In this document: in pieces, positions 5,187 to 24,016 of the stretch
Numbering within the stretch: the stretch's first letter is position 1
Layout of the letters: each line of letters begins with the position of its first letter
Origin: a virus
Reading direction: 5' to 3' (one strand)
DNA: 24,016 nucleotides
Virus record (IMG/VR): IMGVR_UViG_3300033148_004727
Coordinates: 1-24,016 of that record
Translations under genes and position numbers: made by a program
Notes under the pieces: generated by a model
Database searches by the model: none
Seen by the model: the letters and a program-made list of their open reading frames with translations, nothing else
What the model was told of the DNA's origin: nothing

Positions 5187-5742
5187 CTAAACTTTGCCTA
5201 CAACTTGAAACCACCTACAACGCCATTTGTGCCCCGCCTGGTGCACATCCACGGCTTTCGTCACCACAGAGATAATCTCATCACACCAACTCCAGTCCAC
5301 CGCTTCCTCCTTTGTAGGCCATAAATAGAGCCCTGGATGGCATTCCGTCTCCGATGTTGAGAACCAATCAGCACTATATACCCGTCCATCACGGTATTTA
5401 TCAATGTGACCAGCGCGTCTTGTCCGATAGCCTATTACCATCCCCTCCTTTTGTTGTCTAAACATGCTAGTTTTACCATTAGGCATATTATCTGGGTCCA
5501 AACAGGTTTTTGCAATGTCTGTCTTAGATAAGTTTGCTCCCAATAAATTTGCTCTCAATAAATTTGCTTTAGATAAATCTGCTTCAGATAAATTTGCTCC
5601 CAATAAATTTGCTCTAAATAAATCTGCTTCAGATAAATTTGCTCTAGATAAATTTGCTCTAGATAAATCTGCTTCAGATAAGTTCGCCAGTCTGCCACGC
5701 TGTCCACTTTTCCAGCAACGTCTTTGTATCTGACTGCTCCAT
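5187..5742 (-). CDS. pentapeptide-repeat protein, reading frame interrupted (+1 shift needed)
   Basis: The body is a run of A(N/D)Lxx pentapeptides (right-handed quadrilateral beta-helix) followed by about 110 residues with [18 protein letters not shown] and [11 protein letters not shown], typical of phage pentapeptide proteins with a DUF5758-like C-terminal domain. The frame carrying the repeats has no good start: its first start-like codon is a TTG at 5603, deep inside the repeats, without a ribosome binding site. A well-placed ATG at 5742 (AAGGA 7 bases upstream) opens [20 protein letters not shown], which reads like the usual lead-in to such repeats but stops at TGA 5674-5676. Moving +1 near 5680 (CTT to TTA) joins it to the repeats. 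The cause may be a true mutation, an assembly error or programmed shifting. Confidence 0.7.
5526..5690 (-). repeat. 15-bp tandem repeats encoding pentapeptides
   Basis: About eleven imperfect copies of a 15-bp unit (minus strand, GCAAATTTATCTGAA type) encode the A(N/D)L pentapeptide array. The tract is much more AT-rich than its surroundings. Variants mix TCTAGA, TCTGAA and TTGGGA at the end of the unit. Such arrays gain and lose units easily by slippage. Confidence 0.9.
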
Positions 5743-9018: not shown

Positions 9019-9384
9019 TTAGGAGTCTTTTGCCATACTATTCAACATCAAATAGGCGTCGTTGTCTTTTTCAATCCCAGTCATCCCAGGGTTGACAATA
9101 CGGCCTAGAGCACACAATGCGAAATAACCCGTTGACCACTGTCCTGAATGCCATTCGCTATAGTGCCAGTACGCGCCTACGATAAGGTCACTAAGACTGC
9201 ACTCCGTAAATTCACCTATCGCCCAAACGTCTTCGTCGGTTTCGGTGTCTGCTAACACGTCGCACAAGCGAGTTATGGTATTCGTCAAGCGGTTGTAGTC
9301 TAGCTTCCCATCAACTCGGAATAGTGACCGATTGACAACATTAAACAGTCGCTCTATGTTTTTGTACTTAGTGGCGGTTTCCAT
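9019..9384 (-). CDS. hypothetical 121-residue protein
   Basis: Starts METATKYKNIERLFNVVNRS, with an acidic middle (ADTETDEDVWAIGEF) and an aromatic stretch (YWHYSEWHSGQWSTGYF). It is probably alpha-helical and soluble. AGGAG lies upstream of the ATG. It ends KDS-TAA directly before one tRNA-like element and starts just after the other. Not recognised. Confidence 0.65.
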   Translation of the reverse strand: METATKYKNIERLFNVVNRSLFRVDGKLDYNRLTNTITRLCDVLADTETDEDVWAIGEFTECSLSDLIVGAYWHYSEWHSGQWSTGYFALCALGRIVNPGMTGIEKDNDAYLMLNSMAKDS

Positions 9385-9419
9385 TGTTCTAATCTCCTAA
9401 TCAAAAGGTCATTATTAAG

Positions 9420-9465
9420 CCCCGCGCCCGACTTGAACAGGCCGCTTGCCAACACAAGGGCAGGG
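9420..9465 (-). ncRNA. second tRNA-like fold, shorter
   Basis: On the minus strand CCCTGC (9465-9460) can pair with GCGGGG (9425-9420, one G-T pair). Inside are CTTG-TGTTGG-CAAG and GCCTG-TTCAAGT-CGGGC, the latter a canonical T arm (GTTCAAGTC). It shares with the element at 8951-9009 the T-arm signature, GCGGGGCTT followed by ATA one base later, a CTTGTG block and a preceding ACTCCTAATC. The two are therefore probably related. It has one hairpin fewer and about 46 nt, so it is not a functional canonical tRNA. Confidence 0.35.
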
Positions 9466-9487
9466 TTACTGCAAGGAGATTAGGAGT

Positions 9488-9652
9488 CTAGTTGCTTAGA
9501 CGGAAACAGTGGTGCTTAGTTTCGACTAGTCCTCGTCTTTCAAGTCGCGCAATCGCACTTATGGTCGGGTGGTCTTTTGCGTATCCATGCCACCCGGGAT
9601 ATTTGGTGGCAAACGCTAGGGCGTGTTTCATATTGTGGCCGATGTGTTGCAT
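9488..9652 (-). CDS. 54-residue winged-helix-like protein
   Basis: The ATG at 9652 follows TAGGAGCCCAGACC. The product opens MQHIGHNMKHALAFATKYPG, then HGYAKDHPTISAIARLERRG, then LVETKHHCFRLSN. The TISAIARLERRGLVE stretch is a recognition helix plus wing of a winged-helix fold, as in small phage regulators or DNA-binding proteins. It is the first gene of the leftward array, a suitable place for an early regulator. DNA binding is inference from the fold. Confidence 0.65.
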   Translation of the reverse strand: MQHIGHNMKHALAFATKYPGWHGYAKDHPTISAIARLERRGLVETKHHCFRLSN

Positions 9653-9674
9653 GGTCTGGGCTCCTAATATGGGT

Positions 9675-9695
9675 TGTCAATCGTGCAACTGACTA
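9675..9695. repeat. 21-bp intergenic repeat, copy 2
   Basis: TGTCAATCGTGCAACTGACTA pairs with the copy at 8929-8949, with five transition differences. It overlaps the -35-like hexamer of a rightward promoter candidate and precedes the leader of the winged-helix gene on the other strand. Confidence 0.35.
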
Positions 9696-9717
9696 CACCT
9701 ATACTATCGGATATAAT
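9689..9717 (+). promoter_or_regulatory. sigma70-like promoter candidate, rightward
   Basis: CTGACT (4 of 6 to TTGACA), a 17-base spacer and a perfect TATAAT at 9712-9717. It lies in the divergence region about 290 bases ahead of the small terminase gene. Spacing is ideal, but single sites of this quality arise by chance in AT-rich DNA. Confidence 0.35.
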
Positions 9718-9964
9718 ACCGCCGACCATAACAAAATCTGCCCAATCAGCTATTATTTCTTAACTCTCGCTACCATCACACCTTATGACGATAAAACGAG
9801 AGAAATAAATATCACAATAACGCCAAACCGGGTCCGCTTAACCTAGTTTGCTAAACATAATCGCTATCGTGCTACCCGTAAAGACAGCCTATGACTAGCC
9901 TTACCGCTTGACGCACACGAATTAGAAACGAGTAACACATCATCCACTGCTCATATTAAAAAAA

Positions 9965-9993
9965 CTGATACTACATGAACAACCGCTAATAAT
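9965..9993 (+). promoter_or_regulatory. promoter candidate immediately upstream of terS
   Basis: CTGATA (4 of 6), a 17-base spacer and AATAAT (5 of 6, within TAATAAT). Predicted initiation would be near base 10000, leaving a leader of only about 10 bases before the ATG at 10011. This would fit the absence of a ribosome binding site there. Confidence 0.3.
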
Positions 9994-10010
9994 CGGCGTA
10001 TATACACTAT

Positions 10011-10544
10011 ATGAATAAAGACAACACTACAACTGTAGAGAGCGCTCTACAATCGTTAACTCTAAAACAGCAACTCTTTGTCGATGCGTACCTTACACCC
10101 GGGGACACCTTTTTCAATGCTACAAGATCAGCAAGCGCAGCCGGATATGCCGGAAATGAGAACGCTCTATCAGTGATAGGCGCTCGAAATGTCGGGAATA
10201 CTCGTATCAATAGCGCAATTGCGACACACAAACAGTCCATCTCCGACCAAAACGACGATCTACGGCAATTATGCGTCAATAAGCTGCGTATGATTATCAA
10301 GAGTGAGGACGCTAGACCGGCCGAATTGGCTCGCGTCGTGGAGGTGTTGGGTAAGATGTCGGGGTGGCACAGTCAGACGACCGTCCTGGAGACGAGGGAT
10401 CGTCAGCAGCAATTGACGGAGGCGGAGGCGGATCTGGCGAGACGCGCGGCCCTGGCGACGTATGAGCGGCAAGCATTGCCACCAGTCGTGGACGCTGAGA
10501 TCGTAGACGAGAAGGTGGAGGAGCCCCACAATGATGACGATTGA
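10011..10544 (+). CDS. terS: terminase small subunit
   Basis: A 177-residue protein. Residues 15-70 (LTLKQQLFVDAYL, NATRSASAAGYA and INSAIATHKQ) match the N-terminal helix-turn-helix domain of Terminase_2-type small subunits, which bind the packaging site and recruit the large subunit. The central helices and an acidic C-terminus ending EEPHNDDD complete the usual plan. No Shine-Dalgarno sequence precedes the ATG, though the conserved N-terminus shows the start is right. It is the first gene of the rightward arm. The large subunit follows about 2.8 kb later with six small genes between, an unusual distance. Confidence 0.85.
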   Translation: MNKDNTTTVESALQSLTLKQQLFVDAYLTPGDTFFNATRSASAAGYAGNENALSVIGARNVGNTRINSAIATHKQSISDQNDDLRQLCVNKLRMIIKSEDARPAELARVVEVLGKMSGWHSQTTVLETRDRQQQLTEAEADLARRAALATYERQALPPVVDAEIVDEKVEEPHNDDD

Positions 10545-11484: not shown

Positions 11485-11811
11485 ATGTATGACATAGGTA
11501 TCAATATCTATGCGTGGTGTTTTTTTTGGTGGTGTATTGCAGCGGCTTGCTTCATCACCGCGTATGCTGGGTGGCGGAATCTGCGAGATGATGGGAGAGC
11601 AGCTATGCCAGTGCTCCCACTTACGCCTAAGCAGTTCTACGAAAAGATGAAAGCGGCAGTAGTGGAGCACAAGGGAGACAATGAAGCCACAGCTTGGGAC
11701 ATGGAAATGATAATGGTCAATATGCTGGGCGATATGGGCTTCGATAGAGGTATAAAACTTTGGCGCAATTATGTGCGTTGGAAAGAAATACTAGGAGAGT
11801 ATTATGATTGA
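11485..11811 (+). CDS. hypothetical protein with N-terminal membrane anchor
   Basis: A 108-residue protein. A hydrophobic segment (YAWCFFWWCIAAACFITAYAG, about residues 9-29) is followed by a soluble helical domain with PLTPKQFYEKMKAAV and ending RWKEILGEYYD. AGAGTAACCA precedes the ATG, an identical leader to the upstream gene. It is probably a type I or II single-span inner-membrane protein. Not recognised. Confidence 0.65.
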   Translation: MYDIGINIYAWCFFWWCIAAACFITAYAGWRNLRDDGRAAMPVLPLTPKQFYEKMKAAVVEHKGDNEATAWDMEMIMVNMLGDMGFDRGIKLWRNYVRWKEILGEYYD

Positions 11812-12181
11812 CCAAATCGTAGCATTCAAGACGAGTAATGGGAAGTGCTTTGAAGATAAGGTGAGCGCGTATCAGGAAGAAATAGTGGCGATGTACCAAT
11901 TGTTGCCGAAAGTGGGTAAGCGGGGGTTTTCACTCGTCGAGATGGCAGGGCTCACGAGCGAGGTATCACAATGGAAAGATAGGGCTCGGGCGGTATTGCA
12001 TCGGATGAATGAGGAAGTGGAGACGGATGATTGGTGTAATGGGTTGCGGAAGTCGTTTGGGCTCTTGGTGGGCGAGCTTGATACTTGGATCGAAGATGTG
12101 TGCAAATTTCAAGCGCAGATGAAGGGCGAAGTCGATCCCGATGCGAAGAAGGATATTGCCCATCGTAAGCAGGCGGTGTAG
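11804..12181 (+). CDS. hypothetical helical protein
   Basis: A 125-residue protein, predominantly charged helices: QEEIVAMYQLLPKVGKRG, SLVEMAGLTSEVSQWKDRA and ELDTWIEDVCKFQAQ. It overlaps the upstream gene by 8 bases, with AGGAGAGT just before the ATG. No membrane segment or recognised motif. The following 93 bases to the next start hold nothing I can support. Confidence 0.6.
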   Translation: MIDQIVAFKTSNGKCFEDKVSAYQEEIVAMYQLLPKVGKRGFSLVEMAGLTSEVSQWKDRARAVLHRMNEEVETDDWCNGLRKSFGLLVGELDTWIEDVCKFQAQMKGEVDPDAKKDIAHRKQAV

Positions 12182-12274
12182 GTGGGCGACTAGGCGATGG
12201 TATGACTATGACTATCAGGGGAGCTTATAACGATATGAGAGTAGCTAATAATATGAGCAGATTGGAGCTTGGCG

Positions 12275-13090
12275 ATGGTTTCGAGAGCTAAAATTCCCCC
12301 TAGTCAAATTGAGAAGCACGGTTTCAAACAAAGGGGTACGTTGCGGACGGGTATACCGCTGGACAAGGGACGTGTTTCGGATGCGTTTCGAGTGTTCAAT
12401 GGGCCGGTGCGGATTATTGCGATGTTTATGGAGATAACGGAGGCGGTGCCGGCGGGGACGTGTAATATGTCCTGGGTGTTTAGGAGCGACGCCGGGGGGT
12501 ATCGCGTTATCGGGGATACGGTGGATATTGCTCCAAGTGCCCTGGGCGACTTCTATGTAGCCGAGTTGGACGGTACGAATATCGTACAGGTGACTACTGG
12601 GACGGGGGCGATACACGGGTATTGGTATGAGGCGGCGACGGCGAATGGGACGATAGTGACACAGGGGGGGATCGATATCTCCTTCTCCGATTCGGCGATG
12701 TCAGCGGGGGAAGCAACGCTCTATGTGTATTATCAGCCAATTGTCAGCAATGCGTGTATCGTAGCGGAAGATTGGCAGACAACGAGTACGACGTCGAGTA
12801 GTACAACTAGCACAACGAGTTCGAGTAGTTCGACGGCGAGTACGACATCGAGTTCGAGTAGTACAGCGAGCACAAGTTCGACGGCAAGTACTACAAGTAG
12901 TACAAGTTCGACAGCGAGTACGAGTAGTACCAGTAGTAGTACCAGTAGCACATCAAGCACGAGTAGTACTTCAAGCAGTACGAGTAGTACAAGCAGCACA
13001 TCAAGTACGAGTAGTACGAGTAGCTCTACGAGTAGTACGGCGAGCACGACAAGTACAACTACGACGTTTGCACCCCATCCTGGGCCATAA
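12275..13090 (+). CDS. probable virion protein with Ser/Thr-rich mucin-like tail
   Basis: A 271-residue protein. Residues 1-165 form a beta-rich domain (FNGPVRIIAMFMEITEAVP, CNMSWVFRSDAGGYRVIG and ATLYVYYQPIVSN). Residues about 169-264 are almost only Ser, Thr and some Ala, ending TTTTFAPHPGP. A globular head plus a long extended, potentially glycosylatable tail fits a capsid surface decoration or fibre protein. Its place between terS and terL supports a structural role but does not prove it. GGAG lies 8 bases before ATG 12275; a TTG two codons upstream is less likely. Confidence 0.7.
   Translation: MVSRAKIPPSQIEKHGFKQRGTLRTGIPLDKGRVSDAFRVFNGPVRIIAMFMEITEAVPAGTCNMSWVFRSDAGGYRVIGDTVDIAPSALGDFYVAELDGTNIVQVTTGTGAIHGYWYEAATANGTIVTQGGIDISFSDSAMSAGEATLYVYYQPIVSNACIVAEDWQTTSTTSSSTTSTTSSSSSTASTTSSSSSTASTSSTASTTSSTSSTASTSSTSSSTSSTSSTSSTSSSTSSTSSTSSTSSTSSSTSSTASTTSTTTTFAPHPGP
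12779..13066 (+). repeat. imperfect AGT/ACG codon repeats encoding a Ser/Thr tail
   Basis: About 96 codons drawn almost only from AGT, AGC, TCG, ACG, ACA, ACT and GCG/GCA, in irregular 6- to 12-bp units such as ACGAGTAGT. The composition gives a long spurious Leu/Val open frame on the other strand. Length variation by slippage is expected. Confidence 0.85.
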
Positions 13091-13113: not shown

Positions 13114-13326
13114 ATGCACACAGTGGAAGACGTGGTACAGAACAACAAGTCGCGTGTTAGGGACTATAGGAATACGACGCCACGGAATATAGATATTATA
13201 GAGCGTATGCACGGCGTAATGACTCCCAGAGAGATGGGCGTAGTGCCGTGGCACAGTGATTTAGGTAAAGACAATATGGGCTTGGTTAACTACATTGACA
13301 TGCTTAGTTGCGTATACGGGTACTAA
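13114..13326 (+). CDS. hypothetical 70-residue protein
   Basis: Starts MHTVEDVVQNNKSRVRDYRN and ends MLSCVYGY. TAGGAGAGTAAT precedes the ATG. Its TAA overlaps the terL start as TAATG, so terL translation may depend on it. A short hydrophilic protein directly ahead of terL, not recognised. Confidence 0.6.
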   Translation: MHTVEDVVQNNKSRVRDYRNTTPRNIDIIERMHGVMTPREMGVVPWHSDLGKDNMGLVNYIDMLSCVYGY

Positions 13327-14984
13327 TGGCTGTTGACAGATCCATAGTGAAGAATATGGCACGGGTCGATCCGGCGAGTTGGGCCGATGCGAATAGTATC
13401 CAACTGCAAAAGGGGTGCTGGTCGTTTAAGGATCGAACGTATCTGATCGAGCCGATGCAGGCGCATCTAAGGGAAGCGCCTCGGCGGCGGTGCTTTATGA
13501 AGGCGACGCAGATGGGATTTTCAGAGTTGCACATTCTGAAGATTCTCTGGGGGTTGATTCACAAGTATTACCCAGCAGGTGTACTCTACTTGTTCCCCAC
13601 GAAGAACGACGTGGGCGAGTTTAGTAAAGCACGGTTTGGTCCGTTGATTCGGGCGAATCCGACAGCGATAGGCCAGTATGTGAAGGATGTTGCGAGTAAG
13701 ACGGACACGGTTAGTTTGAAGAAAGTGGGAGATGCGTTTCTATATTTGCGGGGTGGCAGCCTTACCAAGCACATGGAAGCGGGGGTGCAAGAGAGTGCGG
13801 CGTTGAGAGGAATTACCGTGGACGGAGTCGTCTATGATGAGCTGGATCTGATGGACGAAGATGTGATTCCGAAGGCAGAAGGTCGAATGGGCGATAGTGA
13901 GATAGCGGAGCAGTCGTTCATCTCGAATCCCGTGCTGCCAGATAAGGGGATCGCATCACTCTATGACCAAAGCGATCAGCGACATTGGTTTAGGACGTGT
14001 TTGAAATGTGGGTATAAGACGTGTGCAGAGTTGGAGTTTCCAGATCTGATCGGGCAGAAGAACGGGAAGGGCTATGTCGCGTGTAAGAAGTGTGGGAAGC
14101 CGACGGATCCAAGATATGGATCGTGGGTGCCAGCGGTTAGGGATAACTCAGATTACATGTGGGGGTATCAATTAAGTCAGTTGACGAGCGTGAATCGTGA
14201 CCCGTATCAGATATTGGAAGAGTATACGAATCCGCCCGACGGTAATCTAGGTGACATCGTTAGGTTGAAGTTGGGTTTGCCCTATGTCAGTAGCGAGGAT
14301 AAACTCACGAGCGGACAAGTCCTGAGTTGTTGTGGGTCAGAGGTTATGCGGAATGGACATCCAGGGCCGTGCGCAATGGGCGTAGACGTGAAGAGGCACA
14401 AGAATGTGGTGATTGGTATTCGTGTGGGGGAAGATCGGTATCAAGTGCTAAGGGTTGCACGGATCGGCACGGGGATAGAGGCGTGGACTGATATATTGCA
14501 GATGGCCAAGCGGTTCAATGTCAGAAGTGCGGTAGTGGATATTAGACCCTACGAGGATGCGGCGAGGCAGTTTCAAAAGCAAGCACCGTTTAAGACATGG
14601 TTGTGTCAGTATTCGGAGAGTACTCCTATGGGGACACAATACAATAGCAGGAGTGGAATTGTGACTGTGAATCGGACGGAGATATTGGATGCGACGCATC
14701 GGTTGATATCGAATGAGCGGCAGTTGGAGTTACCGGCGAGTTGTCCCGAGGTGAAGCAGTTTGCGTTGGAGTGTTCTAGTATTGCAAAGGTGGCGGAGGT
14801 TAATAAGAAGACGGGGCAGTCGGTCTTTCGGTATCATAAACTTAGTACAAATCCTGATGACTATCGGCATGCGCTCAACTACTTCTATCTGGCGGCTAGT
14901 GGGGGGCGTGTGGCTACGGTAGGTGGGAGTGGGAGACGAACGAGTCGGCCGAGGTTTGCTAAGAATGAGTACGCGCGGTGTTAA
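13326..14984 (+). CDS. terL: terminase large subunit (lambda gpA-type)
   Basis: A 552-residue protein, a usual length for the family. The ATPase half has a variant Walker A KATQMGFSE (about 59-67) and Walker B GVVYDELD (about 167-174). A zinc-finger insertion with CLKC (225-228) and CKKC (253-256) is typical of gpA-like terminases. The nuclease half shows GVDVKRHKN (D354), AVVDIRPYED (D405) and a late NPDDYRHALNY acidic pair, fitting the three acidic clusters of the RNase H-like fold. It docks on the portal, pumps DNA into the prohead and cuts concatemers. The ATG overlaps the preceding stop. The frame is open six codons further up, but without a ribosome binding site. Confidence 0.9.
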   Translation: MAVDRSIVKNMARVDPASWADANSIQLQKGCWSFKDRTYLIEPMQAHLREAPRRRCFMKATQMGFSELHILKILWGLIHKYYPAGVLYLFPTKNDVGEFSKARFGPLIRANPTAIGQYVKDVASKTDTVSLKKVGDAFLYLRGGSLTKHMEAGVQESAALRGITVDGVVYDELDLMDEDVIPKAEGRMGDSEIAEQSFISNPVLPDKGIASLYDQSDQRHWFRTCLKCGYKTCAELEFPDLIGQKNGKGYVACKKCGKPTDPRYGSWVPAVRDNSDYMWGYQLSQLTSVNRDPYQILEEYTNPPDGNLGDIVRLKLGLPYVSSEDKLTSGQVLSCCGSEVMRNGHPGPCAMGVDVKRHKNVVIGIRVGEDRYQVLRVARIGTGIEAWTDILQMAKRFNVRSAVVDIRPYEDAARQFQKQAPFKTWLCQYSESTPMGTQYNSRSGIVTVNRTEILDATHRLISNERQLELPASCPEVKQFALECSSIAKVAEVNKKTGQSVFRYHKLSTNPDDYRHALNYFYLAASGGRVATVGGSGRRTSRPRFAKNEYARC

Positions 14985-15214: not shown

Positions 15215-15350
15215 GCCCACAAAAAGCATTGAAGAGATTATACAGGAAATAGAAAGACTCGACGGCATGAAGAGGCAGTGTGATAAAGCTATCATGTTTT
15301 CGTTGCTTTGTCTGGGCGCTATTGCGATACTATTGGTGGTGTGCTTGTGA
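15207..15350 (+). CDS. 47-residue tail-anchored membrane protein (putative)
   Basis: The ATG at 15207 overlaps the upstream stop region. The product is a charged helix (MTEPTKSIEEIIQEIERLDG) followed by a C-terminal hydrophobic span (IMFSLLCLGAIAILLVVCL) running to the stop. Its TGA overlaps the next gene's GTG as GTGA. Overlaps on both sides support a real gene in the operon. It would sit in the inner membrane with the helix facing the cytoplasm. Function unknown. Confidence 0.55.
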   Translation: MTEPTKSIEEIIQEIERLDGMKRQCDKAIMFSLLCLGAIAILLVVCL

Positions 15351-15805
15351 AGATTAGGACGAGCCAAAATGCGGAGGACGTGCGGGAGCTGTTCACACGG
15401 TGGCGCGATATCTGTTTGGCGGATGAGTTTGGTATTAGCGCAGACGTGGAGGTGGTGATAGCGGACTTGGCGAAGTGGTTGGCACACACGGAGGGTACGA
15501 TATTACTGGCTGAAGAGGAGGGGAAGGCGATTGGCTTTCTAGCGATCTTCTCCGTGATGAGCAATGTTGGGCATGACAAGTTTGCCCTGGAGAAGTATTG
15601 GTATGCAGAAGAGGGGCATGGTTTATGTGGTGCACATTTGTTCGTGGCGGGGAGAGCATGGGCGCGGTCGCACGAGTGTAAGAAGTTGATGGTGGAGATA
15701 TCGAGCATGTCGTCGCAGCATTACCAGAATGCGGTCAGGTTTTGCGAGAAGATGGGCATGAAGTTGTTTGAAACTACGTACATGTGTGATGTGAGTGAGG
15801 ATTGA
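15347..15805 (+). CDS. GNAT-like acetyltransferase family protein
   Basis: A 152-residue protein. It begins VKIRTSQNAEDVRELFTRW, then EEEGKAIGFLAIFSV (beta4-like), GAHLFVAGRAWARSHECKKLMVEI (helix alpha3 and beta5) and YQNAVRFCEKMGMKL, the GNAT order of elements. The acetyl-CoA loop (usually Q/RxxGxG/A) is poorly conserved, so activity is uncertain. The GTG start at 15347 overlaps the preceding stop as GTGA. GNAT-like genes between terminase and portal occur in many podoviruses, where their target is unknown. Confidence 0.7.
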   Translation: MKIRTSQNAEDVRELFTRWRDICLADEFGISADVEVVIADLAKWLAHTEGTILLAEEEGKAIGFLAIFSVMSNVGHDKFALEKYWYAEEGHGLCGAHLFVAGRAWARSHECKKLMVEISSMSSQHYQNAVRFCEKMGMKLFETTYMCDVSED

Positions 15806-16007: not shown

Positions 16008-17636
16008 ATGGCTGACCAACGAGCCAAAGAGATAGTAGCACTGCGTGACCGTGAGAAAGCGCGGCAGCAGAATTTTCGTAACTTGTGGCAATCGGTTGCC
16101 GATTTGATGTTCCCGCAAACCTATGGCATTACGACTCAGAGAAGTCCGGGTTGGGAGTTGATGCAGAACCTGTGGGATACGACGGCGGTGGAAGAGTTGG
16201 AGAATATGACGAGTGGCTTGGTCACAAATTTATTTCCGGCAGGCCAGCCCTTCTTCTCCGTAGTGCCGATGGGTGAGATTGATGATTATGATGTGAAGCG
16301 GTATTTGTCTACTGCCACTGAGAAGACACATGAGGAGATGTTTAATAGTAATTTTATTGAGCAGTGCTCGAATACGGTGAAGTACTGGGCGGGGTTTGGG
16401 ACAGGGGCGCTCTACTCTGATTGGACGGTAGCGGATGGATTGAGTTACCGAGATTACTCGGTGGGCACGTATCAATGTTTGGAGAACAGTCGTGGGCTCA
16501 TCAATACGATCATCGTGTCCTGTCCCATGACAGCGCGGCAGATCGTTGAGAAGTTTGGTGAGAATAGCGGCGAAGCCGTGTTGAAGGCAAATGGAGTGCC
16601 GGAATCTTGCGAAGACGTGTTTGAGGTTATACATATTGTTAGACCAAGGAAGGAGTATGACGAGAGTGAAGGAGTTCGGCGGGCAGATCGTATGCCGTTT
16701 GAAAGTCTATACGTGCAGGAGAAGGACCAGATTATCTTGGAGGAGGGGGGGTTTGATGAGTTTCCGTTTGTCGTGCCAAGATATGAAGTGATGTATCGGG
16801 AGGTATATGGACGCGGGCGCGGGACGATGATGTTGCCGCAGGTAAGGACGATTAATCGGTTGGCAAAAGATTATCTGGAGATGTCAAACAAATGGGTCAA
16901 CTCACCGAAGGAAGTGTTGGAGTCGTTCGATGGGGAGGTGGACGTGACACCGGGGGCGCTCAACTATGTGAGTGAGATGGGATCGATAAAGGCGATAGAC
17001 ATGGGTGCTAATGGGATGTACCCAGTGACGAAAGATATACTGGAGTATCATAGAGAGACGATTCGGCAAGGGTTCTTTAAGAATGCGTTTGAGCCGATTA
17101 CACCATTGAGTGGGGATAGAAGGAATACGACAGAGATAATCGAGAGGCTCAAAGAAGGTATGAAGCGGTTGAGCAAGCCACTGGGGCGGTTGTTTACCGA
17201 GTTTGTGACGCCGTTGGTGACACGCTCGGCGTTGTTGTTGATTCGGAATGGTGTGATACCGCCGCCGCCGGAAGCGTTGCAGGGCACGCCGCTGAAGATT
17301 GAATTGATAAATCCGCTCGCGTTGGCACTCCGAGACCAGCAATCGAGGGGCTTGCAAATGTGGGTCACGGCGGGAGCGAATATGGAGCAGACGTTCCCCG
17401 GTATTACCGACAACGTGGATGCGGATAAGGCGTTTCGTGATTTGGGGATATCGTTTGGTGTGAAGACGGATCATATTAGGCCGGTGAGAGAGCGGGATCA
17501 GATGCGGAAAGCAGAAGCTGAGGCGGCCCAGGCACAACAGGAAATGGCCGCGCAGATGGCCAACGCACAAACGTATAAAGATACGGCGAAAGCACCGGAT
17601 GATGGCAGTCCGGCACAACAGCTGACGGGAGCGTAA
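16008..17636 (+). CDS. portal protein (T7-like head-tail connector)
   Basis: A 542-residue protein, the usual size for podovirus connectors. The opening MADQRAKEIVALRDREKARQ, then FRNLWQSVADLMFPQTYG, FPAGQPFFSV and RGRGTMMLPQVRTINRLAKD match the family pattern seen in T7-type portals. The C-terminal part (PPPPEALQGTPLKIELINPL, then a Gln/Ala-rich helix of about 40 residues) also fits. It forms the dodecameric ring at the prohead vertex through which DNA enters and on which TerL docks. It starts 4 bases after the previous gene and ends with a TAATG overlap. Confidence 0.9.
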   Translation: MADQRAKEIVALRDREKARQQNFRNLWQSVADLMFPQTYGITTQRSPGWELMQNLWDTTAVEELENMTSGLVTNLFPAGQPFFSVVPMGEIDDYDVKRYLSTATEKTHEEMFNSNFIEQCSNTVKYWAGFGTGALYSDWTVADGLSYRDYSVGTYQCLENSRGLINTIIVSCPMTARQIVEKFGENSGEAVLKANGVPESCEDVFEVIHIVRPRKEYDESEGVRRADRMPFESLYVQEKDQIILEEGGFDEFPFVVPRYEVMYREVYGRGRGTMMLPQVRTINRLAKDYLEMSNKWVNSPKEVLESFDGEVDVTPGALNYVSEMGSIKAIDMGANGMYPVTKDILEYHRETIRQGFFKNAFEPITPLSGDRRNTTEIIERLKEGMKRLSKPLGRLFTEFVTPLVTRSALLLIRNGVIPPPPEALQGTPLKIELINPLALALRDQQSRGLQMWVTAGANMEQTFPGITDNVDADKAFRDLGISFGVKTDHIRPVRERDQMRKAEAEAAQAQQEMAAQMANAQTYKDTAKAPDDGSPAQQLTGA

Positions 17637-19246: not shown

Positions 19247-20170
19247 ATGAGCTTACCTAGCACGATTGACGTTGCTTTTACACAACAGTATGGCTCTATG
19301 CTCTATATGCTTTCGCAGCAGAAAAAGAGCAAGTTTGCTCCTCGTGTACGCAATGAGACGATTAGGGGCGCTAAGGATGGTTATTTTGATCGTCTTGGCG
19401 AAGCCGAAGTGGAAGACATTACCACGCGGCACCCCGATACGCCTCTCAACGAGATACCGAATTCTCGTAGACGGCTCACGATGACGGACAGCCATACCAA
19501 TAGCTTTATTGACCATCAGGATCAGCTAAAGATGCTGATTAACCCGCAGAATCCGTATGCCCAAGCACAGGCAATGGCTTTGGGGCGCAAGATCGATGAC
19601 AAGATCATCGCAGCGGCGCTCGGAAGTGCAGCCGCCGGTGTGGATGGGACGACTTCTGTGGACTTCAAAGATGAGTCGATAAGCATCAATGGCGATGGTA
19701 CGGTAACGACTCTTGGTACGCTTGCTGCTGTTAAGACGGTTGCGATTATGAGTTTGGCGAAGATTCTAACCATGAAGCGTTTGTTCGACGATGAGGATGT
19801 TGACGAAGATGCGAAGTTGCATTGGGCTGTCAGTCCGAAGGATGTTCAGGATATGCTGGATATCGAAGAGCTGAGCAGCGCTGATTACAACACGGTTAGA
19901 ACGCTGGCTCAGGGGAATATCGAGACCTTTATGGGTTTTGAGTTCTTCAAGACTACGCGATTGACCGAAGACGCAGTGACCAGTACCGCACATCGAACCT
20001 TCGCTTGGGTTGCTGATGGGGTTATTTTCGGTTCTGCCGAGGGTATCTACAATCAGATTTCCGAGCGTGAGGACAAGAGTTATACCACCCAGGTGTATTC
20101 TCGCATGAGCAATGGCGCGGTCCGTATGGACGGCGACAAGATTCACGAATGTCTTAACAAGATCGCTTAA
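19247..20170 (+). CDS. major capsid protein
   Basis: A 307-residue protein directly after the scaffold gene. It opens MSLPSTIDVAFTQQYGSMLY, with an N-arm, then IPNSRRRLTMTDSHTNSFID, a long helix with INPQNPYAQAQAMALGRKID (spine-helix-like), AVSPKDVQDMLDIEELSSAD and FMGFEFFKTTRLTED (A-domain-like). These fit an HK97-fold phage coat. ATG 19247 follows AGAGGTGTTTATT; a GTG three codons upstream is less likely. Codons ending in T or C and CGT for Arg are more frequent than in neighbouring genes, as usual for the most abundant virion protein. Confidence 0.88.
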   Translation: MSLPSTIDVAFTQQYGSMLYMLSQQKKSKFAPRVRNETIRGAKDGYFDRLGEAEVEDITTRHPDTPLNEIPNSRRRLTMTDSHTNSFIDHQDQLKMLINPQNPYAQAQAMALGRKIDDKIIAAALGSAAAGVDGTTSVDFKDESISINGDGTVTTLGTLAAVKTVAIMSLAKILTMKRLFDDEDVDEDAKLHWAVSPKDVQDMLDIEELSSADYNTVRTLAQGNIETFMGFEFFKTTRLTEDAVTSTAHRTFAWVADGVIFGSAEGIYNQISEREDKSYTTQVYSRMSNGAVRMDGDKIHECLNKIA

Positions 20171-20192: not shown

Positions 20193-20993
20193 ATGGGTAC
20201 TCCACTTGAGGCTGGTAATTTCCAGCTTGAGGTTCCGAGTTATCCTCGTGTCCTGATTAATGGTGCGCTAGGCGAACCGAAACAGGGCATTTACGAGACT
20301 AGCTCGACGCAAGAGTATGAGCATGGAACGAAGTTGACCTACCCGGATGGTAGGGTATTTCGCTATACCGAGAACGGGGCGGTGGCACTGACCGTTGCTC
20401 GTATGACGGAAATGGAAGCGCTGTATGCGCGCGCCGTTGAAGAGACCCAAAGCACCTATGGTGCGGATGCTGACGTTGGCGATGTCGAAATCGACGTGGA
20501 CGTTACGACCGGTGGGACTTTCTCCGACAATGCGTATGCTGGCGGTACCATGATCGTCAATGATAGTACGGGTATGGGCGACATCTACCGGATTTTGGCG
20601 ACAGAGATCAACGACAGTGATGACACGCTGCTGAGAGTTCGGCTTGAAACACCGATCAGGACAGCACTGGACACTGGAAGCATATTGACCTTTGTTAAGC
20701 CGGTTGGAAAAGATGTTGTTGTACGTCCGACTACAGCGGAAGGTACTCCTACGGGTGTGGCACTTGTTGCGGTTCCAGCAACAAACTTCTTCTGGGCGCA
20801 AACCGGGGGCGTTGGTCCCTTGTTTGTAGACGACAGCGATACGGTCATCAAGGGTCAGTTGGTAGGTCCCGGTGGGACTGATGCTGGTGCTTGTGATGTG
20901 ATTGCAGCAGATACGACATATGCCTATGGCGTGGCCGTATATGTGGCAGCTGCGGATCAGCCCGCGCTGATTGACTTCAAACTGGACAGTTAA
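20193..20993 (+). CDS. capsid-region virion protein (decoration-like)
   Basis: A 266-residue acidic, beta-rich protein with an AAAGGAGCACAAA leader. Segments GNFQLEVPSYPRVLINGALG, GGTMIVNDSTGMGDIYRILA and ILTFVKPVGKDVVVRPTTAE suggest beta-barrel repeats; no membrane segment is present. It sits between major capsid and tail genes and shares the capsid's codon preference, which points to an abundant virion protein such as a head decoration protein. The name rests on position and composition, not on a recognised family. Confidence 0.6.
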   Translation: MGTPLEAGNFQLEVPSYPRVLINGALGEPKQGIYETSSTQEYEHGTKLTYPDGRVFRYTENGAVALTVARMTEMEALYARAVEETQSTYGADADVGDVEIDVDVTTGGTFSDNAYAGGTMIVNDSTGMGDIYRILATEINDSDDTLLRVRLETPIRTALDTGSILTFVKPVGKDVVVRPTTAEGTPTGVALVAVPATNFFWAQTGGVGPLFVDDSDTVIKGQLVGPGGTDAGACDVIAADTTYAYGVAVYVAAADQPALIDFKLDS

Positions 20994-21690: not shown

Positions 21691-21975
21691 ATGAGTAAGC
21701 AAAAACACATATCCCCTTGGAAGGATAGTCAGGTATCACAGCTAACTAAGTGGCTTCAGTTAATTTACACTGCGGCATCTAATGGGCAGTACGATTGTGA
21801 AGAGGAACTACAGTTGGAATACTGGCCCGCTGTTTCTAGTACGATTGCTCGGTACATATTGCCCCCAAACAAGGACTACTTGGTTATGTCTAGGAATGCT
21901 GATAATTATGTAACGGTGGAAATGGCAGCTACGCGTCTAAAGTGCAACTGTTTGCCAGAAGAACTTGGTCTTTAG
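21691..21975 (+). CDS. hypothetical 94-residue protein
   Basis: Starts MSKQKHISPWKDSQVSQLTK and continues WLQLIYTAASNGQYDCEEEL, with an acidic middle and ending CLPEELGL. CAGGAGAGTAAT precedes the ATG, the leader shared by rightward genes. It lies between tail tubular A and the methyltransferase genes. Not recognised. Confidence 0.6.
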   Translation: MSKQKHISPWKDSQVSQLTKWLQLIYTAASNGQYDCEEELQLEYWPAVSSTIARYILPPNKDYLVMSRNADNYVTVEMAATRLKCNCLPEELGL

Positions 21976-21988
21976 CAGGAGAGTAAAA

Positions 21989-22459
21989 ATGAAACAACAT
22001 GAGAAGTATGGGCTCTGCCTAGACGCCGGCTCCAGTATTGGTACGAAGAGGCCAGCGCCAGGGTTTAGCGCCTATTGTGATGTGATTGTGCCGAGAGAAG
22101 GCGACATCGTACCGGAGAATTATCACACGGCTCCGCTAGAGGATATGAGTTGCTTCAGTGATAAACAATTTGATTGGGTCCGATGTCACCACGCGATTGA
22201 GCATACATATGATCCAGATAAGGCGTGTCGTGAGTTGATTCGTGTAGGCAAAGCAGGGATTATCTCCTACCCCCCGATGTGGTCGTGTATGTTGTTTGGG
22301 AGGAGGGATCACAATTGGTTCGTGACGGAAGATCATGGAAGACTGGTGTTTATCAAAAAGAGACACGCCAGTTACGGGGTACCGAGGTGTGAAGTGGGCA
22401 CCGAGTTGAATCGCAACTTCGAGTGGAAAGACTCGTTCAAATGGCTAGTCGTAGAGTAG
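21989..22459 (+). CDS. class I SAM-dependent methyltransferase-like protein (short)
   Basis: A 156-residue protein. Residues 8-18 (GLCLDAGSSIG) form motif I of a SAM-binding Rossmann fold. LEDMSCFSDKQFDWVRCHHAIEH (about 50-72) matches the motif of Methyltransf_11-type enzymes (L.. D.SFD.V.. .H.IEH), then CRELIRVGKAGIISYPP. The C-terminal part is short, so the substrate domain is minimal. ATG 21989 is chosen for GCAGGAGAGTAAAA. It lies at the head of the glycan-modification cassette; such enzymes often act on sugars or nucleotide sugars, but the substrate cannot be read from sequence. Confidence 0.7.
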   Translation: MKQHEKYGLCLDAGSSIGTKRPAPGFSAYCDVIVPREGDIVPENYHTAPLEDMSCFSDKQFDWVRCHHAIEHTYDPDKACRELIRVGKAGIISYPPMWSCMLFGRRDHNWFVTEDHGRLVFIKKRHASYGVPRCEVGTELNRNFEWKDSFKWLVVE

Positions 22460-22465
22460 TGGTGA

Positions 22466-23089
22466 ATGGTGATGAGTAATACAAACAAAACAGGATTGGT
22501 ATTTGATGTAGGAGCATATCGTGGTGACAAAACAAAGTCCTATCTATTACAAGGACACAATGTAGTCAGCTTCGAGCCAAATCCAGTCTATGCTGCAAAA
22601 CTACGTAGCCGTTTTAAGAAAAACGTAACCGTAGTTGAAAAGGCTGTTGGTTCCTTTGGTGGGACTGTAAAGCTGATGATATGCTCCAGAGCAGCAACAA
22701 TATCTACTTGTAGTCCATTGTGGAAGACCGGGCGATTTGCTCAATATAAATGGGATAAAGAGATTGATGCTGAGCAAATAACGCTTGATACTGCAATATC
22801 CGAATATGGTAAACCAGACTTTATTAAAATAGATGTAGAGGGGTATGAGTACGAAGTGCTTAAAGGTCTGAGTTCTTACGTTTGTGAGCTGTCATTTGAG
22901 TTTGCCTGTGAATTTCAATCTGCTATATCAAAATGCGTAGAAAGATTAGTTGAACTTGGATATCGACAGTTTAGTTTCAAAAACGCAAAGCAGTCTAACC
23001 TTTACATCTCATGGGGAAGTTCTTTTGAAGCGATAGATGCACTCGGTAAAATGCCTGTATGCACATGGGGAGATGTTTATGCTAAATGA
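22466..23089 (+). CDS. FkbM-family methyltransferase
   Basis: A 207-residue protein. VFDVGAYRGD (residues 12-21), VVSFEPNP (33-40) and DFIKIDVEGYEYEVLKGL (118-135) are the three hallmark blocks of FkbM (Methyltransf_21) enzymes, SAM-dependent O-methyltransferases often found in polysaccharide clusters. It starts 6 bases after the previous gene, with a poor ribosome binding site; ATG 22472 is an alternative. Base composition turns visibly more AT-rich here than in the structural genes, suggesting recent acquisition. Confidence 0.82.
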   Translation: MVMSNTNKTGLVFDVGAYRGDKTKSYLLQGHNVVSFEPNPVYAAKLRSRFKKNVTVVEKAVGSFGGTVKLMICSRAATISTCSPLWKTGRFAQYKWDKEIDAEQITLDTAISEYGKPDFIKIDVEGYEYEVLKGLSSYVCELSFEFACEFQSAISKCVERLVELGYRQFSFKNAKQSNLYISWGSSFEAIDALGKMPVCTWGDVYAK

Positions 23090-23690
23090 GCCAGAAATGA
23101 AACCCTCTATTGCACATAGACTGACAAACGGTAAGAAAGACAAACTACAACCACGTAGACTCAAACTGAAACCCCTTGATAGGGATGTCGCCAAAGAGAA
23201 TTTACTCCTAATGAAAGAAGTTCTGGACCGGCGTAACATCAAATTCTGGCTGCTATATGGAACTCTTCTTGGGGCAGTTCGTGATAAGAACTTTATTGCA
23301 GGAGACAATGATATAGACCTCGGTTTCTATTACAGTGATGCGGAAGAAGTATATAACGCACTATTGAAACTACAAACTCTTGGTTTCAACATATTTCGTG
23401 TTACCGCAGATAGTACGTTCGTCCAGATTAGCCGAAACGGGGTTTATATTGATATAGTTCTATGGAATCAGGAGCATGAAACTATGTGGAGGTGTGGTGA
23501 TTATTACGAACCGCACAACTTCTTTTCCGAATTTATAGAATGGCCGTTCCTCGATACTACATTTCTCATCCCAAAGAAATATGAGGAGTATCTAAGAGTA
23601 CACTACTACGGCGAAAATTGGAAAATACCAGATCCTTCGTGCAAACATGCAAAAGTGTGTAAAATCAGCAAGAGGAGTAGGGACGCATGA
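23079..23690 (+). CDS. LicD-family nucleotidyltransferase (phosphocholine-transferase-like)
   Basis: A 203-residue protein. FWLLYGTLLGAVRDKNFIAG then DNDIDLGF (residues about 57-83) is the LicD signature of the nucleotidyltransferase fold, with catalytic acids D76, D78 and D80. The third acid fits D125 in GVYIDIVLW. LicD enzymes transfer phosphocholine or another phospho-alcohol from the CDP-activated form to a sugar on a cell-surface glycan. ATG 23079 has GGGGAGATGTTT upstream and overlaps the previous gene by 11 bases. A good start and operon overlap support an intact gene, and the next gene could supply its donor. Confidence 0.82.
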   Translation: MLNEPEMKPSIAHRLTNGKKDKLQPRRLKLKPLDRDVAKENLLLMKEVLDRRNIKFWLLYGTLLGAVRDKNFIAGDNDIDLGFYYSDAEEVYNALLKLQTLGFNIFRVTADSTFVQISRNGVYIDIVLWNQEHETMWRCGDYYEPHNFFSEFIEWPFLDTTFLIPKKYEEYLRVHYYGENWKIPDPSCKHAKVCKISKRSRDA

Positions 23691-24016
23691 TTATCGTATA
23701 TTCATCTTACGTGCTTGACATAGTTCATAAAGGACATCTTGAAATGCTACGAAACGCTAAAGCTGTAGCTGGCAGAGATGGCAGACTCATAGTAGGAATA
23801 CTTACCGAGGCGGCTTGCTGCGAAAAGAAGCCCGCGCCCATAATGCCATTCGAGGAGCGAGTAGAGCTTGCTCGCAGTATAGAGTGTGTAGATTTGGTAG
23901 TAGCACAATCAACCTATTCTACACTATCGAACATACAATCCATTAAACCTGATATACTAATGGAATCCTCATCACACGAACCAGATCCAGATGTCATATC
24001 CGCTATGAATAGGTTA
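23687..24016 (+). CDS. cytidylyltransferase-like nucleotidyltransferase (3' truncated by window)
   Basis: The frame starts with AGGAGTAGGGACGC before an ATG that overlaps the LicD stop (ATGA) and stays open for 110 codons to the window edge. VYSSYVLDIVHKGHLEMLRN carries the HxGH motif (H14, H17) of the cytidylyltransferase superfamily. LIVGILTE, MPFEERVELARSIECVDLVV and IKPDILMES match the later strands. Related enzymes make CDP-choline, CDP-glycerol, CDP-ethanolamine or phosphonate-CMP donors. Coupled to LicD, it is likely to provide a CDP-activated donor. The rest of the protein and any partner gene lie beyond the window. Confidence 0.8.
   Translation, partial: MIIVYSSYVLDIVHKGHLEMLRNAKAVAGRDGRLIVGILTEAACCEKKPAPIMPFEERVELARSIECVDLVVAQSTYSTLSNIQSIKPDILMESSSHEPDPDVISAMNRL

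Follow-up and report, generated by a model that had tools for sequence, protein, structure and literature searches.

A predicted jelly-roll protein encoded between the two terminase genes of an uncultured phage carries a C-terminal chain of 96 residues made up of serine, threonine and alanine only. Our best reading is that the chain is exposed and possibly O-glycosylated, and that the jelly-roll protein bearing it is of the capsid decoration type; we hold this reading to be evenly balanced between right and wrong. Judged by comparison of related sequences, the tail is a removable, length-variable accessory that is dispensable for the gene. The tailed protein as such is a variant within known phage virion decoration and virion glycosylation. 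The stretch of DNA that was analysed, called the window below, is a whole virus record of 24,016 bases (IMGVR_UViG_3300033148_004727) with the following features.

10011..10544, plus strand: terminase small subunit, terS (PF03592, Terminase_2, E 6.8e-10; phrog_51)
11804..12181, plus strand: 125-residue protein upstream of the tailed gene, with a weak homologue at the same place in the tailless relative L021
12275..13090, plus strand: whole gene of the 271-residue protein, predicted jelly-roll plus Ser/Thr/Ala tail (no Pfam or PHROG family over cut-off)
12275..12778, plus strand: head domain, 168 residues, predicted jelly-roll (model pLDDT 77.2, pTM 0.75; VIA-align Z 9.3-8.2 against phage capsid proteins)
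12779..13066, plus strand: Ser/Thr/Ala tail, 96 residues (S54 T37 A5, by codon count)
13067..13087, plus strand: seven-residue end FAPHPGP, by translation; no domain beyond the tail
13326..14984, plus strand: terminase large subunit, terL (PF05876, GpA_ATPase, E 9e-20; phrog_675)
16008..17636, plus strand: portal or head-tail connector (PF12236, E 1e-90)
19247..20170, plus strand: major capsid protein (PF19821, E 1e-61; the family profile matches T7-group capsids)
21965..22459, plus strand: SAM methyltransferase-like protein (PF08241, E 6e-7)
22466..23089, plus strand: FkbM-family methyltransferase, a glycan gene (TIGR01444, E 1e-22)
23037..23690, plus strand: LicD-type phosphotransferase, a glycan gene (NF045866, E 8e-16, under the model cut-off; the sister copy has PF04991 over cut-off)
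23687..24016, plus strand: cytidylyl- or adenylyltransferase, cut by the contig end (TIGR00125 over cut-off; sister copy PF01467)

The initial annotation had placed the gene between terS and terL and glycan genes at the right end of the window. Pfam matches (PF03592 and PF05876) confirm the former, and the FkbM methyltransferase, the LicD-type protein and the cytidylyltransferase account for the latter. The tailed gene lies upstream of the portal (PF12236) and capsid (PF19821) genes. Since the capsid-family profile matches T7-group capsids, the phage is likely to be short-tailed. The 125-residue protein encoded at 11804..12181 shares 23% identity with its L021 counterpart (E 1e-8 in a single comparison).

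The tail had been described as about 96 consecutive residues of nearly only Ser, Thr and Ala. An exact codon count agrees: positions 12779-13066 hold exactly 96 codons, 54 for Ser, 37 for Thr and 5 for Ala, with no other residue. The reading frame is open from 12269 to 13090, and a TTG at 12269 is a possible start that would give 273 residues; we prefer the ATG at 12275 (271 residues) because relatives begin at that residue. Numbered from this ATG, a small correction of the start, the head comprises residues 1-168 and the tail residues 169-264, followed by FAPHPGP. Outside the tail, S+T+A make up 21.7% of the codons in 11 plus-strand coding stretches, head included. At this background a random run of 96 such residues has a probability of about 10^-64, and chance can therefore be excluded. 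The Ser codons comprise 43 AGY and 11 TCN, all four Thr codons are used, and the +2 frame across the tail is full of stops. From the mixed codons and the stop-filled frame we conclude that the tail is a feature of the protein rather than a simple DNA repeat, with imperfect DNA repeats present within the region. An artefact of DNA repeats was rejected on the same mixed codons and because a relative at 58% head identity keeps the tract in the same frame. The possibility that the tail links the head to a missing domain was also discarded, as copies with a visible end stop at most 7 residues past the tract.

The head gave no family or match over cut-off in Pfam, PHROG or PDB sequences, and a profile search of PDB sequences to E 1 returned no cement protein. 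No functionally characterised homologue was found. The beta-rich head suggested by the initial annotation was borne out in an AlphaFold2 model based on a nine-row alignment (pLDDT 77.2, pTM 0.75), which is an all-beta sandwich forming a single jelly-roll domain. Foldseek matches to the PDB were weak (best E 8e-4), the Pam1 and KHP30 chains reaching a probability of 0.99 at TM of only 0.40-0.41. VIA-align 2 was run on Foldseek's top chains, and just 4 of the 986 aligned chains scored Z of at least 8, all of them phage capsid proteins: KHP40 (Z 9.3, rmsd 3.8, 110 residues), KHP30 (Z 9.3, rmsd 3.7, 107 residues), BPP-1 (Z 8.3, rmsd 3.3, 110 residues) and Pam1 (Z 8.2, rmsd 2.9, 112 residues). Scores of this size (Z 8-9) are moderate, and the jelly-roll is a widespread fold (Ena pilins 7.8, BcsB 7.4, other viruses). 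The structure library titles describe KHP40 as a trimeric cement protein, and KHP30, BPP-1 and Pam1 as capsid or capsid-topology structures; the matched KHP30 and Pam1 chains we take to be cement proteins as well. The top BFVD match, A0A6J5T790 (E 4e-8), comes from a phage and is uncharacterised. Similarity of fold does not by itself establish homology to cement proteins. With phage capsid proteins as the best solved matches of the predicted jelly-roll, the model supports the earlier proposal of a virion protein, and a decoration-type virion protein is likely. Alternatively, the true decorator could be the conserved protein encoded at 20193-20993, immediately behind the capsid gene. The model of that protein (pLDDT 52) is too poor to use, and a profile search of the PDB with this protein returned nothing.

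The matched cement proteins (BPP-1 Bbp16, those of KHP30/KHP40 and Pam1 capsid chain H) share the predicted fold over about 110 residues, and the likeness extends to a short-tailed phage with a T7-group capsid protein. Excerpts of PMC3863775 name the BPP-1 jelly-roll a cement protein and describe an exposed C-terminal extension that accepts a 22-residue C-terminal fusion. Given such an exposed and fusion-tolerant C-terminus, a natural extension of 58-137 residues at this place is plausible by analogy. The protein described here differs from these jelly-roll cement proteins in that identity is 10-14%, the gene stands before terL instead of beside the capsid gene, most copies bear a Ser/Thr/Ala tail of 58-137 residues, and capsid binding is putative.

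Jelly-rolls are also found at fibre tips. The jelly-roll head might accordingly belong to the tail or fibres and bind a receptor or carbohydrate there, with the Ser/Thr chain as a stalk or adhesion aid. BcsB and tail-tip proteins do appear among the VIA-align rows (Z 6-7.4), and the C-terminal part of some beta-helix-like proteins (L065, L095) may be a distant relative of the head; yet capsid proteins head the same list, and the gene is grouped with terS and terL rather than with tail genes. The relationship to the fusion proteins also depends on L101 alone, which encodes a distant tailless head-like relative two genes past the major capsid gene (L101:8826-9395), a position in favour of the decoration reading. 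Iteration of the head profile brought in L065 (C-terminal part), L095, L096 and L101, but when built without those seeds only L101 stood clear of shuffled sequences (24.1 versus 12.1 bits), and L095 scored 8.2 bits against a profile built without fusion proteins, under the best shuffled controls (12.1 bits). We consider a fibre role unlikely. In the translations of L095:8578-10089 and L065:10166-11632, the head-like domain appears to be C-terminal.

A sister contig, 3300033153_008490 (52,468 bases), is 98% identical to the window and has a tail of the same length, with one synonymous and one S-to-T codon difference among 96; its head differs by four synonymous and two non-synonymous codons among 170. 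A search by TerL instead of the tail returned L004 (TerL identity 59%, tail of 58 residues) and L012 (47%, 137 residues). The comparison of tail lengths proposed earlier gives a length unchanged in the sister and varying from 58 to 137 residues across relatives. Viral contigs searched for the tail motif held 17 such stretches, spread over 16 contigs, among them more heads (L042/L045) and fragments (L032, L040). A head-profile search added the tailless homologues L021, L022 and later L050, all directly before terL.

This gene slot was then surveyed in a sample chosen so as not to select for tails, made up of the window and the 80 top-ranking TerL relatives from viral contigs. A Ser/Thr tract directly upstream of terL, one small intervening gene allowed, occurs in 11 of these 81 loci (the window, L003, L004, L012, L032, L042, L051, L063, L064, L070 and L125), where L064 shows the tail end only and L032 and L040/L070 lack the N-terminus. 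Three loci (L022, L050, L065) have the head without the tract, and 67 have neither in the slot, 17 of them showing fewer than 700 bases upstream of terL; a tract sought throughout the fetched DNA of these 67 was not found. One locus contains both forms as a tandem pair before terL (L063:1429-2706), a tailless copy of 165 residues and then a tailed copy of 254 residues, with heads 54% identical and a tail that is nearly pure Ser.

In a TerL tree of 15 rows (L005, L006, L016, L052, L056-L062 and near-copies were omitted), the tailless pair nests within a clade (100/98) in which four rows are tailed and two tailless. The rows L042, L032 and L040 were first found by the tail motif, but the pair also nests inside rows located independently of that motif (window, L004, L012). 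The simplest history is hence that the gene was kept and its tail lost; the head tree is poorly resolved. The initial annotation would have given up its proposal had relatives lacked the tail while the gene kept its position. Such relatives exist (L021/L065, L022, L050), which counts in part against the proposal. They show that the gene can do without its tail, but this is no evidence that the tail is functionless. Beyond these contigs, tblastn of the head against 50,697 phage records gave no match, three different queries gave no head relative in GenBank phages, and tblastn gave none in bacterial genomes. TerL relatives also occur in MAG contigs, Phycisphaerae and deltaproteobacterial ones included, and neither head nor tract is present in any of them. 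The frame at L005:385-975 starts sigma-factor-like and continues as a TerL C-terminus, and looks like a chimeric assembly.

The window ends inside the glycan cassette, ahead of any GT2 gene, and contains no GT2 gene itself. In the sister the cassette reads FkbM, LicD, CTP_transf, DUF2061, MT+GT2, GT11, GT2, GT2 and sits among late structural and virion genes; it thus holds three GT2 proteins and a GT11, and a fourth GT2 lies at L009:8863-9888. Two further proteins of the sister are also rich in Ser/Thr: a LamG protein of 789 residues, in which 267 residues of S/T/A separate domains, and a protein of 500 residues whose corresponding tract spans 109. In L004, a protein that is LamG-like by resemblance and contains an S/T tract follows immediately after a GT2. 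From reading translations, L020 has a gene run similar to the sister cassette.

These tracts bear on a rival account, in which the tail is a mere hydrophilic spacer or solubility chain whose chemistry is irrelevant and which is not glycosylated. The same type of tract joins folded domains in the two sister proteins, one lineage has lost the tail and retained the gene, the mix of Ser and Thr gives way to almost pure Ser in L063 and L125, and only one of seven further tail-motif contigs has a GT2 over cut-off. However, the tail links nothing, since no copy with a visible end has a domain past it, and its residues are almost purely O-glycan acceptors, without the Gly, Asn, Gln or charged residues that spacers usually contain. 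We consider a mere spacer somewhat unlikely.

Two sister GT2 families carry DAH where ordinary GT2 enzymes have DxD, and DxH is presumably the hallmark of GT27. A profile of the L009, L020 and L125 glycosyltransferases has a polypeptide GalNAc-transferase as its top PDB match (E 7.8e-11, positions 3-251; DAHC aligned on DAHC). The profile of the L008 and L004 enzymes has GalNAc-transferase 7 first (E 1.3e-6), across three weak stretches. GalNAc-transferases are abundant in the PDB, and ranking first there does not tell which sugar donor is used. Single sequences gave weaker matches: the best for L009 is a GalNAc-transferase (E 9e-4), and for L008 a GlcNAc-transferase (0.0015) stands ahead of GalNAc-transferase 1 (0.01). 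The DxD-type GT2 of the same cassette matches chondroitin synthase first, and none of its eight matches is a GalNAc-transferase. In GenBank phages, the L009 enzyme has no relative and the other has one weak match (Tunturi_4, E 4e-10). Since the tailless L021/L065 also has a GalNAc-transferase-like enzyme (L021, E 4e-7), serving the tail cannot be the only role of such enzymes.

In the TerL sample, GT2 genes over cut-off occur in 3 of the 11 records with tracts (sister, L004, L125) and in 2 of the 70 others (L065, L122, the latter without a head), which corresponds to a Fisher p of 0.016 (0.020 length-weighted, 0.010 with near-copies collapsed); these statistics ignore the kinship of related genomes, which are not independent, just five records carry GT2, and the 17 loci with short upstream DNA weaken the count. 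In an earlier mixed set of 34 records the two groups did not clearly differ (GT2 in 3 of the 15 with tracts and in 2 of the 19 others). As GT2 occurs in the tailless L021/L065 and the headless L122, tail and GT2 are separable, and we regard their co-occurrence as weak, suggestive evidence. O-glycosylation, raised as a possibility by the initial annotation, gains strength from the sister cassette, the GalNAc-transferase-like enzymes and this co-occurrence. The proposed functional link to the glycan genes does so from the cassette and the two Ser/Thr-rich proteins of the 98% sister. Both are unproven.

The cassette might instead modify the host surface, for superinfection exclusion or receptor masking, and have nothing to do with the tail. 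The DUF2061 membrane protein in the cassette and the DxH GT2 genes without a tail in L021/L065 and L122 would fit such a role, and excerpts of PMC2884959 propose exclusion or DNA modification for a GT2 of Tweety. Set against this are the placement of the cassette among late structural genes and the precedent of mycobacteriophages. In Corndog, according to PMC4351075, the stretch from portal to protease gene includes genes for an O-methyltransferase, two glycosyltransferases and a putative N-acetylglucosaminyltransferase, for which capsid modification is suggested. Glycosylated proteins in Che8, Corndog and Myrna appear in excerpts of PMC12363180, and capsid glycans of Che8 in excerpts of PMC11256854, both crediting Freeman 2023. 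On balance, we consider a role confined to the host surface somewhat unlikely.

We favor the exposed chain on a decoration-type protein. The head would dock on the capsid exterior, and the S/T/A chain would be disordered and project outward from the particle. GalNAc-transferase-like and GT2/GT11 enzymes encoded by the phage may add O-glycans to the Ser and Thr residues of the chain, with LicD and FkbM decorating the sugars further, and the resulting brush could alter how the particle makes contact with surfaces, host decoys and other particles. The glycosylation step alone, suggested by gene content, we would put somewhat short of an even chance. In its fullest form the proposal states that the phage makes its own mucin: Ser/Thr chains of decoration proteins would become O-glycan brushes through phage GalNAc-transferase-like enzymes, extended by fucosyl, methyl and LicD-type additions, and give a proteoglycan-coated capsid that is lost by a lineage dropping the chain. 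This we consider unlikely.

A long Ser/Thr tract is also seen in animal mucins, and the candidate enzymes resemble GT27 by a DxH within the DAHC motif and by best PDB matches to GalNAc-transferases. In contrast to animal mucins, the tail has no proline, and the phage enzymes are remote from animal GalNAc-transferases and, inferred from their length, too short for the C-terminal lectin domain. The reportedly glycosylated mycobacteriophages Che8, Corndog and Myrna encode glycosyl- and methyltransferases, as the sister does, those of Corndog among virion genes, but the targets reported there are capsid and tail-tube proteins, whereas the putative target here is a separate S/T-only chain. The idea of an accessory on the capsid surface is shared with T4 Hoc and other mucus-binding capsid proteins; adhesion there is ascribed to Ig-like domains of the Hoc type, and the protein described here has none over cut-off. 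The mucus adhesion suggested by the initial annotation is therefore unsupported and was rejected: the head is a predicted jelly-roll without any Ig-like or known mucin-binding domain over cut-off in Pfam (Ig-like Big_3 only at E 0.12), and mucin-like does not mean mucin-binding.

In a few mycobacteriophages, virion glycosylation has been reported on ordinary capsid and tail proteins, and we found no description of a Ser/Thr-only capsid chain in the open-licence PMC literature. If the proposal holds, a dedicated Ser/Thr-only chain on a decoration-type protein and enzymes that resemble the initiators of mucin O-glycosylation would make a simple two-part system of acceptor chain and transferase, which could reveal what role a sugar coat plays in phages outside animal hosts. 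Tailed and tailless homologues, including the tandem pair in one genome, are natural controls. The main interest is that acceptor and candidate enzymes can be tested together, including in E. coli.

Three minor observations concern the rest of the window. Between terL and the portal gene, positions 15308-15805 encode a GNAT-type acetyltransferase (PF00583, E 1e-4), and similar acetyltransferase-type proteins were seen by eye at that place in L004, L012, L040 and L063. A tandem array of 45-, 30- and 15-base units at 5525-5681 overlaps a minus-strand, pentapeptide-repeat-like frame. The coding strand switches at 9384-10011, from minus-strand genes on the left to plus-strand late genes on the right, and the GC skew changes there.
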